Shown here: positions 15,257 through 20,523 of the stretch, one piece after another | Numbering within the stretch: the stretch's first letter is position 1 | Layout of the letters: each line of letters starts with the position of its first letter | Assembly (NCBI RefSeq): GCF_900176135.1 | Contig: NZ_FWWW01000070.1 | Location: forward strand, 62,058 to 126,057 | DNA from: Hymenobacter roseosalivarius DSM 11622 | Lineage (GTDB): Bacteria; Bacteroidota; Bacteroidia; Cytophagales; Hymenobacteraceae | Length of the DNA: 64,000 nucleotides | Direction: 5' to 3' | Position numbers and translations under genes: made by a program | Notes under the pieces: model-generated | Databases searched by the model: none | Seen by the model: only the letters and a program-made list of their open reading frames with translations | What the model was told of the DNA's origin: nothing

Positions 15257-16514
15257 TTAAACTGCCAGCTCAGCCACCGTGTGCTGGTATTTTTGCCCCC
15301 TAGCGGCTGGGCGTACCTGACCCGTGCGCATAACAAATGTTCCTGTAGCTCGCAACTCATCACGAAGTTGAATCAAGGTGCTCAACTGGGCATAGCCGAT
15401 GGTGTATGATGAGGCGCTGTCGGTTGAGACATGCTGCAACGCCAGCGCATCCACGAGCTTTTCATCGGTGGCGCGCAGACAGATTTCAACTTCCACATCG
15501 GTGGTATACGTTGGTACGATGGCGGCAGTGTGCTTATGCAGTGTGCTTATGATAAGCATAGCGGTAGCCGTGGCGCAGAGCGGCCAAATCAGATAGCACA
15601 GCCGAGCCGGTGGGGTGGCCACCGGCACCCCGACCACGCAAAAATTGCGCATCGGCAAAAGCAGCTTGGATTACTACGCCGTTAAACTCGCGCTCCACGG
15701 CATAAAGAGGCGACGCCGGGCCGACAAGCTGCGGCGTGACAAATACTGTGACGCGGCCATCTGCCAGCCGCTGCAAACTGGCAACTGCTTTAATTTTTTG
15801 CCCCCCAGCAGCTGCAAACCGGATGTCCTGAGCCGTGATGTTTTCGATGCCCAGATTCAGCACCTGGTCAGGGTTCAGGAGCACACCGTACGCGTGCGCG
15901 ACTAGAATGACGGCTTTGGAACGCGGATCGAAAGCGCCCATATCGAGCGTGGGGTCAGTTTCGGCGAAACCTAAGGCCTGAGCTTCGGCCAGGGCGGGGC
16001 CGTAATCGGAGCCTTCTTCGGTCATGCGGGAAAGCACGTAATTGGACGAGCCATTGAAAAGGCCCCCCACGCTATGCAGCGGCTCGCTGCCGAAGTAGCT
16101 GTCGAGGGTGCGTATAATCGGGATACTGCCGCAAACGGAAGCTTCGTAGAGCAGGGTGCCGCCGTGCGCTTGCTGAAGCTCAACCAGCTCAGGCAGGTGG
16201 TGCGCAACCATCGCCTTATTGGCCGTTACGATTTGCCGCCCGTTGCGCAAGGCAGTGCTTACCAAGCGAAAAGCTTCATCGGCATCGTCGATTACTTCCA
16301 CCAGCACGTCCAGATCGGGGTCGGTGAGCAGGTCGTCGGCGTGAAAGTCGAAGCGGTCGGCGGGCAGGGTGCGGGATTTGGTAGGATTTTTCACCGCAAT
16401 ACGCTTCACCACCGCTCCAAACTCGGGCAGCTGCTGCAGAATATCGTAGAGCCCTTGCCCCACGCAGCCAAAGCCAATCAACCCAATGCGCAAACGACTT
16501 TTATCGGATATCAT
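15257..16514 (-). pseudogene. hom: Homoserine dehydrogenase, frameshifted by a 13-bp tandem duplication
   Basis: From ATG 16514 the protein begins S-D-K-S-R-L-R-I-G-L-I-G-F-G-C-V-G-Q-G, the NAD(P)-binding loop of homoserine dehydrogenase, which reduces aspartate semialdehyde to homoserine for Met/Thr synthesis. Later signatures such as G-L-F-N-G-S-S-N-Y-V-L-S-R-M and G-R-G-A-G-G-H-P-T-G-S-A-V are present. Frame is lost after ...Y-A-Y-H-K-H-T-A at a TAA (15534-15536), leaving 326 residues. Removing one of two identical 13-bp units (15525-15550) restores a 414-residue protein. It then continues A-A-I-V-P-T-Y-T-T-D-V-E-V-E-I-C-L into an ACT-like C-terminal domain ending at 15257. The truncated form keeps the whole catalytic domain and could retain activity while losing the regulatory tail. 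It is the last gene of the met operon, 53 bases after metX. Confidence 0.85.
15525..15550. repeat. Exact 13-bp tandem duplication inside hom
   Basis: GCAGTGTGCTTAT occurs at 15525-15537 and again at 15538-15550 with no gap. Thirteen is not a multiple of three, so the duplication shifts the frame of hom. Such duplications arise and revert by replication slippage. Confidence 0.97.
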
Positions 16515-16567
16515 AGGAGTGCTACTTGCGGAAAGAATAGAACAGCAGGAACAAGCGGCTAAGAGCC

Positions 16568-17596
16568 TCAATGGGCGAACGTCTGCACATAGAAGCGTTC
16601 GAGAAAATGAGTGATTTGGGCGGTTTCTATCAAAAAACCGTCGTGGCCGAAACCGGAATCCATTTCGGCGTACATAGCGCCGGGGATGTAGCGGGCCAGA
16701 AACTGCTGCTCGTGGGGCGGAAACAGCACATCAGACGTGATGCCCAGCACCAACGTACGAGCCCGAATCTGGCCCAATGCGGCAGCAATGCTCCCTCTGC
16801 CCCGGCCCACATTGTGCGAGTCCATGGCTCTGGACAGCGCCACGTAAGTGTAGGCATTAAAGCGGGCCACCAGCTTATCTCCCTGATATTGTTGGTAAGT
16901 GCTGGCCCGGAAACCCGTGATTTTATTTTCGTCGGGTTCCTGCTGGGTATTGCCATAAGCCTCGTAGCTGCGGTAGCTGAGCAAGGCTATGGCGCGGGCC
17001 GCTTTCAAGCCATTTTGCCCTCCGGTCGGCGTGGCCGAGTGATAGGTTGGATCAGCGAAAATGGCTAAGCGCTGCGCTTCATTAAAAGCAATGCCCCAAG
17101 GCGAGTGCTGCGCATTGGTGGCCAGCACGATAAGATGCTCAAACACGGTGGGCTGCTGAATGGCCCACTCCAGTGCCTGCTGTCCACCCAGGGAGCCACC
17201 AATCAGCGTATGAATCTGAGTCAAGCCTAAGTGGAGCCGCAAAGCTTCGTGCGCCGTCACCATATCCCGAACCGTAAGCAGCGGAAAATCCTGATAAAGC
17301 GCTGGCTCTGCGTTGAACGGCGTGAGTGGGCCCGTGGAGCCATAGCAAGAGCCCACTATGTTGGCGCACACGATGAAATGAGTTGCCGGATCGAAATGGC
17401 AGCTGGGGCCAAATAAGCCAGGCCACCAGCTGAGCACATCGGCGTTGGCCGTAAGCGCATGGCACGCCCACACCACATTGTCGCGAGCGGCATTGAGCGT
17501 ACCATACGTATGATAAGCTATCCGCGCTTGAGGTAACATAGCGCTGCTTTCGAGTAGAAGCGGTTCAGAAAGGACGAAATGCTGATAATCAGGCAT
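16568..17596 (-). CDS. metX: Homoserine O-acetyltransferase
   Basis: I use ATG 17596 (M-P-D-Y-Q-H-F, 342 residues); an in-frame ATG 33 bases upstream is possible but would lie in a hairpin. Alpha/beta-hydrolase-fold enzyme that moves an acetyl (or succinyl) group from CoA to homoserine, the first committed step of methionine synthesis. Visible are W-A-C-H-A-L-T-A-N-A-D-V, A-N-I-V-G-S-C-Y-G-S-T-G-P, the nucleophile elbow G-G-S-L-G-G-Q-Q-A-L-E-W, and the Asp and His contexts I-T-S-D-V-L-F-P-P and G-H-D-G-F-L-I-E. Order metY-metX-hom on the minus strand makes a methionine operon under the SAM riboswitch at 20336-20442. A 265-base gap with strong hairpins separates it from metY. Confidence 0.94.
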   Translation of the reverse strand: MPDYQHFVLSEPLLLESSAMLPQARIAYHTYGTLNAARDNVVWACHALTANADVLSWWPGLFGPSCHFDPATHFIVCANIVGSCYGSTGPLTPFNAEPALYQDFPLLTVRDMVTAHEALRLHLGLTQIHTLIGGSLGGQQALEWAIQQPTVFEHLIVLATNAQHSPWGIAFNEAQRLAIFADPTYHSATPTGGQNGLKAARAIALLSYRSYEAYGNTQQEPDENKITGFRASTYQQYQGDKLVARFNAYTYVALSRAMDSHNVGRGRGSIAAALGQIRARTLVLGITSDVLFPPHEQQFLARYIPGAMYAEMDSGFGHDGFLIETAQITHFLERFYVQTFAH

Positions 17597-17683
17597 GTAG
17601 TGTGTTGTTCTGATAATTGCCTCAAGCAAACCGGGGCCAGAGGTTGAGGCCCATCGTCAGGCGGTAACTATAAAAGCAGATTC

Positions 17684-17861: not shown

Positions 17862-19977
<2,116 letters not shown>

Positions 19978-20172
19978 AGTGGTATAAAGAGTTGGTTTGC
20001 GAGAAAATGGACAGGGCGCCGTGGCGAGACCCGGAGCGCGGCTGGCGGGGGCAAGACAACAGGCAGTAGTGAGCCGGCCAGGGACACCCGATGCCCCGTG
20101 CAGACCCTAGGATCTGCCGCGGCGCGGTTTTTTACAGGAAATGAAAAGGAGGAGAGCTAGTCGGAAGCCGGA

Positions 20173-20325
20173 TTAGCAACAACACACGCAACAACAGCAC
20201 ATTCGCTTGGCCAACGGGCTGCCAGTGGCAGGAGCCAAAACGCGGAAACCCGCAGGCCAATCGGCGCGCAATGAGGCGGCTGAGGCGGGCGGGGGAAGCA
20301 GTACGGAAGAAGCTTGGTTTCTCAT
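20173..20325 (-). CDS. Leader ORF ending in a cysteine-codon run (CCCCVCCC)
   Basis: A 50-codon ORF starts 11 bases after the SAM-I riboswitch and ends at TAA 20173-20175. Its last eight codons are TGC TGT TGT TGC GTG TGT TGT TGC, i.e. C-C-C-C-V-C-C-C. An internal ATG (20200-20202) would give a nine-residue peptide M-C-C-C-C-V-C-C-C, which may be the working unit. Seven cysteine codons in eight positions ending at a stop is the pattern expected of an amino-acid-sensing leader peptide: ribosome stalling when Cys-tRNA is short would change folding of the RNA downstream. The next 195 bases to the peroxiredoxin start contain at least two hairpins (GCAGATCC/GGGTCTGC near 20101-20118, and GGGGCA/TGTCCC near 20081-20097). 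Expression is not proven; the upstream 41 codons look unremarkable. Confidence 0.6.
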   Translation of the reverse strand: MRNQASSVLLPPPASAASLRADWPAGFRVLAPATGSPLAKRMCCCCVCCC

Positions 20326-20335
20326 GGCGCTGAGC

Positions 20336-20442
20336 TTATATCTCCCGCCGGCAACTGACCGGGCGGGCAGGAATTGGCACCTTTCACATGATGAAGGTTG
20401 CCAGCGGGTCAGGGAGCCTATTCTCTCGCCGCTTCTGTATAA
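20336..20442 (-). ncRNA. SAM-I (S-box) riboswitch
   Basis: On the minus strand the RNA reads ...TTATACAGAAGCGGCGAGAG..., then CTGACCCGCTGGCAACC, a variable stem-loop, GGTGCCAATTCC, then TGCCCGCCC...GGCGGGAGATATAA. The paired signature GGCAACC (near 20397-20403) and GGTGCCAATTCC (20370-20381), the AGAG-purine internal loop and closure of TTATA (20438-20442) with TATAA (20336-20340) as P1 are those of the SAM-I class. Binding of S-adenosylmethionine should shut off the operon that follows (Cys-leader ORF, peroxiredoxin, metY, metX, hom). No T-tailed terminator lies directly 3', so control of translation or of the leader ORF is as likely as transcription termination. Confidence 0.85.
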
Positions 20443-20492
20443 ATCTGAAATAACTATCTCGTCGTTAACGAGAAGTACCGGGTAGGTAGCCG

Positions 20493-20523
20493 CAAATGTA
20501 CGAATCGAATGGAGAACGCCAAA
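20493..20523 (-). promoter_or_regulatory. Promoter of the met operon
   Basis: On the minus strand TTTG (20520-20523) is followed after 19 bases by TACATTTG (20493-20500). This is a full match to the Bacteroidota -33 TTTG / -7 TAnnTTTG promoter with correct spacing. The predicted transcript starts near 20486, about 45 bases before P1 of the SAM riboswitch. Confidence 0.75.

Follow-up and report, generated by a model that had tools for sequence, protein, structure and literature searches.

Messenger RNA leaders that respond to two signals are known in bacteria, among them that of mgtA with mgtL (Mg2+ and proline) and tandem SAM-I/B12 riboswitches. These leaders respond to other ligands, and to our knowledge none of them pairs a SAM-I riboswitch with cysteine. 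Short polycysteine ORFs of mycobacteria reportedly act as cysteine-responsive attenuators; in a proposal said to have been made by Canestrari in 2020, stalling of the ribosome frees the start of the gene from a structure that masks it. Among SAM-I riboswitches, translational representatives with the ribosome-binding site in P1 are described in the accessible text of Barrick and Breaker 2007 (PMC2258182). Leader peptides with a Cys run near the stop codon and no conserved terminators were reported in 2005 for actinobacterial cys genes, and the accessible part of that report suggests Rho as a weak possibility (PMC1262725). In Mycobacterium tuberculosis, two riboswitches control small upstream ORFs (uORFs) according to the accessible text of the respective reports: the Mg2+-sensing Mbox, which acts through Rho-dependent termination (PMC12810186), and a B12 riboswitch, which controls uORF translation (PMC11260477). 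Tandem Cys codons also occur in the leader ORF uORFC-8-2 upstream of cysS in Rhodobacterales (PMC8632094, accessible text), and in Flavobacterium psychrophilum strong clues point to leader-peptide attenuation before amino-acid biosynthesis operons (PMC9723704, accessible text).

The leader described here lies in a 64,000-nucleotide stretch of the Hymenobacter roseosalivarius DSM 11622 genome, hereafter the window. It appears to combine two elements of known kinds, a SAM-I riboswitch and a Cys leader peptide, and the comparative support for this combination is strong. The aptamer is of the same family (RF00162) as in translational SAM-I riboswitches; however, the start codon beside P1 is that of a Cys-rich leader ORF and not of a metabolic gene. 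In contrast to the actinobacterial Cys leaders, the ORF belongs to the Bacteroidota, is not located at the 5' end of the mRNA, has a SAM-I riboswitch upstream and is also found before metY. The Mbox and B12 uORFs are not described as amino-acid sensors in the accessible text of their reports (PMC12810186, PMC11260477), whereas the ORF found here carries a run of Cys codons. Flavobacterium psychrophilum is likewise a member of the Bacteroidota, but neither cysteine codons nor a SAM riboswitch are named in the accessible text (PMC9723704). uORFC-8-2 differs by having just two Cys codons, a consensus consistent with an intrinsic terminator and no riboswitch, as far as the accessible text describes it, and by its phylum and gene (PMC8632094). 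Among the listed matches of a full-text literature search, to whose scope subscription papers mostly do not belong, no description of a SAM-I riboswitch with a Cys leader was found.

Leader Anatomy in Hymenobacter roseosalivarius

All features of the leader and its operon are encoded on the minus strand. A promoter-like pair of the Bacteroidota type, TTTG-N19-TACATTTG, is located at 20493..20523 (TTTG at 20520-20523, TACATTTG at 20493-20500), as a preliminary description of this DNA had noted. The Bacteroidota promoter consensus is given as TAnnTTTG in the accessible text of PMC9723704, and a TAYMTTTG box is kept in 14/14 leaders of the genus. It is followed by the motif CGGTACT (20474..20480), the 5' strand of a proposed helix P0 whose partner is formed by the bases directly upstream of the leader start codon, and by a 5' hairpin, TCTCGTTAACGACGAGA, between P0 and the aptamer (20457..20473). 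The SAM-I aptamer itself, likewise recognized in the preliminary description, was recovered by cmscan at 20333..20445 (RF00162, 73 bits, E = 3.4e-15, gathering threshold 44.4) and is the sole Rfam match at the gathering threshold in the window. It aligns full-length to RF00162 positions 1-108 and contains the P1-P4 four-way junction and the conserved core; its outer P1 pairs are weak.

The leader ORF (20173..20325; MRNQ...KRMCCCCVCCC-TAA) has the 50 codons previously ascribed to it, and its initiation region, AGCGCCATG, is located beside P1/P0 (20323..20331). Its start had been placed 11 bases after P1; counted from the end of the Rfam aptamer, the distance is 7 nt. The last eight codons, seven for Cys and one for Val, and the stop codon form the segment TGC TGT TGT TGC GTG TGT TGT TGC TAA (20173..20199), which is conserved in the genus. 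The leader ATG at 20325 is located about 165 nt 3' of the -7 box (20493-20500), from which the transcription start is deduced, whereas the mycobacterial polycysteine ORFs are reportedly leaderless.

Between the leader stop codon and the ATG of the first gene lie 195 nt, the distance also given in the preliminary description. This untranslated interval (19978..20172) is C-rich and G-poor, which by composition statistics makes it a candidate Rho-loading region, and no intrinsic terminator was found in it. The first frame, a peroxiredoxin (AhpC/TSA; 19303..19977, ATG at 19977), is broken at codon 123 by an in-frame TAG. As the gene is uninterrupted at the same operon position in a relative (L262), the copy in the window may be a recent pseudogene or reflect a sequencing error. 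The operon continues with metY, encoding O-acetylhomoserine sulfhydrylase (17862..19247; TIGR01326, 671 bits, cut-off 495), a metX-like homoserine acyltransferase gene (16568..17629; TIGR01392, 337 bits, under the curated cut-off of 500) and a homoserine dehydrogenase gene (15534..16571).

Recurrence of the Leader across Bacteroidia

The source genome contains five SAM-I riboswitches, four of which have a Cys-cluster ORF behind them. Besides the leader in the window, these precede a TonB-receptor-like gene (L001), an amino-acid-permease-like gene (L004) and a RimK-like ATP-grasp gene (L005). The fifth riboswitch precedes metH and has no Cys-cluster leader; the gene names for L001, L004 and this metH were assigned by eye.

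We then considered the 233 SAM-I loci of the genus, order and class with the strongest riboswitch matches listed. Of these, 231 were scored; a truncated locus (L077) and one in which the core was not found (L197) were left out. To score as a leader, an ORF had to begin no more than about 95 nt from the GGTGC core, terminate upstream of the gene and contain at least three consecutive Cys codons, and leaders with just two consecutive Cys were counted as misses. Gene labels were obtained by tblastn with seed sequences, leaving 16 loci unlabelled. A Cys-run leader was found at 37/48 metY, 13/14 cysH, 11/13 permease, 6/7 ATP-grasp and 2/3 peroxiredoxin loci, at 2/10 metX, 2/8 TonB and 5/16 unlabelled loci, and at 1/26 metB-like (labelled PLP2 and presumed to be of this family), 0/80 metH and 0/6 hom loci. 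Dinucleotide shuffles led us to expect at most 0.22 Cys-run loci per gene class. Presence before genes of the matching pathway and absence elsewhere, as is characteristic of attenuators, was thus pronounced: 69/85 metY, cysH, permease, ATP-grasp and peroxiredoxin loci carried the leader vs 1/112 metH, metB-like and hom loci (Fisher p = 3e-36; the test omits 34/231 loci, i.e., those unlabelled or labelled metX or TonB). As the loci are related, p-values overstate their independence. In the first 211 loci, runs of at least three were counted 72 times for Cys, 19 times for Leu and 8 times for Val, the latter two probably being mostly other frames of the same repeats. The proteins encoded behind Cys leaders include O-acetylhomoserine sulfhydrylase, PAPS/APS reductase, a nitrite/sulfite-reductase family protein and an HPP membrane protein.

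The joint occurrence of a SAM-I riboswitch and a Cys-codon leader, as previously described for the window, is hence conserved and gene-specific in several genera of the class. The expectation that orthologues keep the Cys codons held within the genus, where 14/14 examined SAM-I loci of the metY or peroxiredoxin-metY type have Cys clusters; beyond the genus it held in part, as 11/48 metY loci are without a run of three. Of 264 loci, a combined sequence pattern for aptamer and Cys run recovered just 4 and 6, and it was dropped for this low recall.

A second, partly overlapping set comprised the best 80 metY loci of a larger number from named genomes, 78 of which had enough upstream sequence (L289 and L338 were dropped). 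SAM-I was present at 61/78 loci, 57 identified by the core pattern and four more by cmscan, which also confirmed 19/19 rechecked core-pattern calls. Cultured carriers of the leader include Pontibacter virosus, Thermonema rossianum, Chryseolinea serpens, Hymenobacter qilianensis, Mucilaginibacter oryzae and Pedobacter rhizosphaerae. A run of at least three Cys followed in 38/61 loci and was absent from 23/61. The latter include four Algoriphagus loci and one Cyclobacterium locus (L273, L277, L286, L288, and L298) in which SAM-I is present but no leader has even a Cys pair, possibly representing natural loss of the Cys leader. Among the 17 loci without SAM-I, one had a Cys run: in a Flavobacteriaceae MAG (L301), the metY leader ORF ends with CCC and no SAM-I reaches the gathering threshold, a possible Cys-only version of the leader. 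A phylum-wide search yielded 29 new loci, almost all of which belong to other classes; 28 were scored (L356 was dropped). As a Cys run was found at 0/23 metY, 0/3 metX and 0/2 metH loci, the trait looks restricted to Bacteroidia, judged by a narrow sample of other classes in which the 23 metY loci represent three families and 16/23 come from one.

Several further arrangements were noted. TonB-receptor-like genes are preceded by SAM-I and a Cys-cluster leader of at least two Cys in 5/8 loci so labelled (L001, L021, L048, L051, and L054), hinting at receptors for organosulfur compounds. At L010, L011 and L014, SAM-I is present without a run of three Cys; the leaders of L011 and L014 are alike, and at L010 the riboswitch precedes a cysteine-synthase-like gene (named by eye). 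At two metX loci (L097 and L099), the leader ends with CC and its stop codon is located about 4 nt upstream of the predicted metX start, a spacing that would suit translational coupling rather than Rho. Finally, in four genomes (G023:C7, G039:C1, G018:C8, and G009:C11) permease-type and cysH-type SAM-I/Cys leaders face each other on opposite strands at a distance of 15-17 kb, as if bounding a sulfur-assimilation island.

The Riboswitch-Closing Helix and the Leader Start

Leader starts were picked in the order ATG > GTG > TTG. In 61/72 leaders, the best aptamer-side helix ended 0-12 nt before the leader start (median 6 nt), in an automatic search that stopped at the start codon, allowed 0 to about 50 nt in most loci and chose a helix other than P1 in some, the window included. 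By eye, the P1 strand of the window leader, TATAAGCT, ends 7 nt before the ATG. As in the Mbox type, a riboswitch helix thereby overlaps the initiation region of the uORF, and P0 does so in the genus. A helix 0-12 nt from the gene start was found for 5/76 metH and 0/26 metB-like loci, where the search window differs, making this a contrast in layout and not a matched control. Upstream of the leader starts the sequence is rich in A, and a Shine-Dalgarno-like motif occurs in just 2/72.

RNAalifold analysis of 14 metY-type leaders of the genus revealed a helix, GGUA/UACC (P0), that surrounds the aptamer together with a covarying hairpin and has its end next to the AUG. The four P0 pairs are kept in 14/14, 14/14, 14/14 (UG or UA) and 13/14 leaders, the window leader having the one broken pair, and the hairpin introduced above shows compensatory changes at 4/6 pairs. 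In the GTG type, P1 comprises 11 pairs and hardly varies among 27 sequences, so that covariation is silent on it. Both alignments comprise solely loci with leaders. The P4 arm is missing or nearly so in 23/27 GTG-type aptamers of the genus (L001, L005, and L021 are among the alignment), which still score above the RF00162 cut-off.

Since the median distance from the end of the closing helix to the leader start is 6 nt, SAM probably turns off translation of the leader directly. The preliminary description overlooked that this helix abuts the leader start codon, owing to which the two sensors look arranged in series and not merely side by side.

From the Leader to the Genes

Between the leader stop codon and the gene, terminator-like hairpins were identified in 5/66 loci (4.1 expected from dinucleotide shuffles). 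SAM-only leaders contained them in 12/73 metH (1.5 expected), 10/25 metB-like (1.0) and 0/6 hom loci (0.6), with expectations from first-order Markov resampling; by the same rule, 61/73 SAM-only metH leaders are without a terminator. These counts bear on the idea of two independent sensors in series, with a riboswitch acting on transcription or on the downstream gene, a Cys leader attenuating separately and a P1 that is close merely as a result of an early leader start. We regard this as rather unlikely. SAM-I can evidently stand alone, as it does before metH and metB-like genes in the same genus and, without a Cys leader, before metY in the three families of other classes; however, the Cys leaders do not share the terminator excess of the SAM-only metH and metB-like leaders, and the spacing from helix to start codon is tight. 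Classical intrinsic attenuation by terminator and antiterminator was rejected, as there is no terminator excess behind the Cys leader.

We also considered control as proposed for mycobacteria, in which ribosomes stalled in the Cys run would break a structure hiding the start site of the downstream gene. In the window, the preliminary description had suggested pairing of the Cys segment with bases just upstream of the peroxiredoxin start, and the complement GCAAACCAAC is indeed present at 19991-20000. It is missing near the gene start in 13/13 other leaders of the genus, and this pairing was rejected as not conserved. Predicted duplex energies between the Cys segment and its own gene start showed no difference from those of mismatched pairs at metY, cysH and permease loci. 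Masking the Cys run produced no overall gain in gene-start openness (62 loci, p = 0.76; metY -0.002), and the small gains at cysH (p = 0.15), permease (p = 0.07) and ATP-grasp loci (p = 0.16), which would fit such control, were non-significant. Control of the mycobacterial type is thus improbable here.

The interval before the genes is distinct in composition. The excess of C over G in the 130 nt before the gene was 0.110 in 37 genus loci vs 0.023 in 22 other 5' flanks from the window (p = 7e-5), and for the 100 nt after the leader stop codon the comparison gave p = 0.006. Overall, this C-over-G signal is a weak one and does not prove a Rho site. With terminators at chance level, a gene start that is not opened, a C-rich and G-poor interval and a rho gene present, we favor Rho as the factor that would link the leader to the genes, in analogy to the Mbox-uORF leader of M. 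tuberculosis (PMC12810186).

The Cys Run as a Putative Codon Sensor

A short ORF with a cluster of Cys codons near its stop codon, the hallmark of a leader-peptide attenuator, is what these loci display: in 46/72 leaders, nothing separates the stop codon from the last CC. In 14 aligned leaders of the genus, the body of the peptide drifts and the Cys run stays. Among codon-differing pairs, 137/287 were synonymous in Cys columns vs 579/2886 elsewhere, i.e., 579 synonymous to 2307 non-synonymous pairs outside the Cys columns. TGT accounted for 152/219 Cys codons in 37 genus leaders vs 24/115 in 35 long genes of the window (p = 1e-17, one genome set against many loci). By the latter count, TGT is the minority Cys codon of ordinary genes, and a minority codon would suit a sensor if it were decoded more slowly.

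The product could instead be a functional Cys-rich small protein that senses metals or thiols, and runs as long as nine Cys (L167) might bind metal or undergo oxidation. We consider this very improbable given the drift of the peptide body and its excess of non-synonymous pairs, the lack of a Pfam match for the ORF in the window, the position of the run at or near the end, and the strong tie to particular sulfur genes. A chance or low-complexity TGT repeat in RNA without peptide meaning is hardly credible, for although TGY repeats are common genome-wide and probably often arise as shadows of runs of Leu codons (the source genome has 146 matches of TGYTGYTGYTRR vs 36 for the reversed pattern), shuffles expect 0.22 of 48 metY loci where 37 were observed, and start position, frame and early stop are similar in distant genera. 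Among the 30 Cys-run matches listed as loci in the source genome, 15 that end in a stop codon were viewed by eye, and only one of these 15, the already known L224, was located in such a leader.

A Proposed Two-Input Leader and Its Meaning

Our analysis confirmed the observation made in the preliminary description and partly supported its interpretation. We consider it likely, on the basis of sequence comparison, that the mRNA leader has two inputs and permits sulfide/sulfate assimilation only if low SAM coincides with a shortage of charged tRNA-Cys. With a SAM riboswitch directly before a Cys-run ORF, both of the sulfur end products appear to be monitored by a single leader.

In the proposed mechanism, bound SAM would stabilize P1 (and P0 in the genus) over the A-rich bases before the leader start codon, thereby blocking initiation. 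At low SAM, ribosomes would enter the leader and stall at the terminal Cys codons if Cys-tRNA is scarce, and with a stalled ribosome expression would run on into the genes. A leader that is not started, or smoothly completed, would expose the C-rich untranslated interval, most likely to Rho. Consequently, metY, cysH, the nitrite/sulfite-reductase family gene and others would be on only with SAM and cysteine both short. The conserved anatomy argues for SAM gating of the leader and for stalling at the Cys codons, while the Rho step and the AND logic are what we would expect of such an arrangement: SAM-I is usually an OFF switch, and a shortage of cysteine should not leave a sulfur gene silent, so in the simplest logic the genes would need both low SAM and a stalled ribosome to be on. 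OR logic instead of AND logic is conceivable.

In its strictest form, the two-input leader would act as a relay, in which the sole effect of SAM is on translation of the leader, stalling of ribosomes at the Cys codons is then required for the gene to be on, and the riboswitch never touches the metabolic gene. We put this form forward tentatively, as one possibility that we hold with rather less confidence than two-input control as such. If true, inorganic-sulfur assimilation would be under an AND gate across several orders of the class Bacteroidia, and metH and metB-like genes in the same group would stay under SAM-only control, in part with terminators.

If the two-input leader is real, cultured and uncultured Bacteroidia would possess a natural RNA circuit in which a metabolite riboswitch and a codon-based amino-acid sensor are connected in series. 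This would explain one set of Bacteroidota SAM-I riboswitches that lack terminators, along with the Cys-rich ORFs behind them, and suggests that some SAM-I riboswitches act directly on a leader ORF instead of the metabolic gene. It would also provide a testable rule for the conditions under which these bacteria bear the cost of reducing sulfate and of direct sulfhydrylation.
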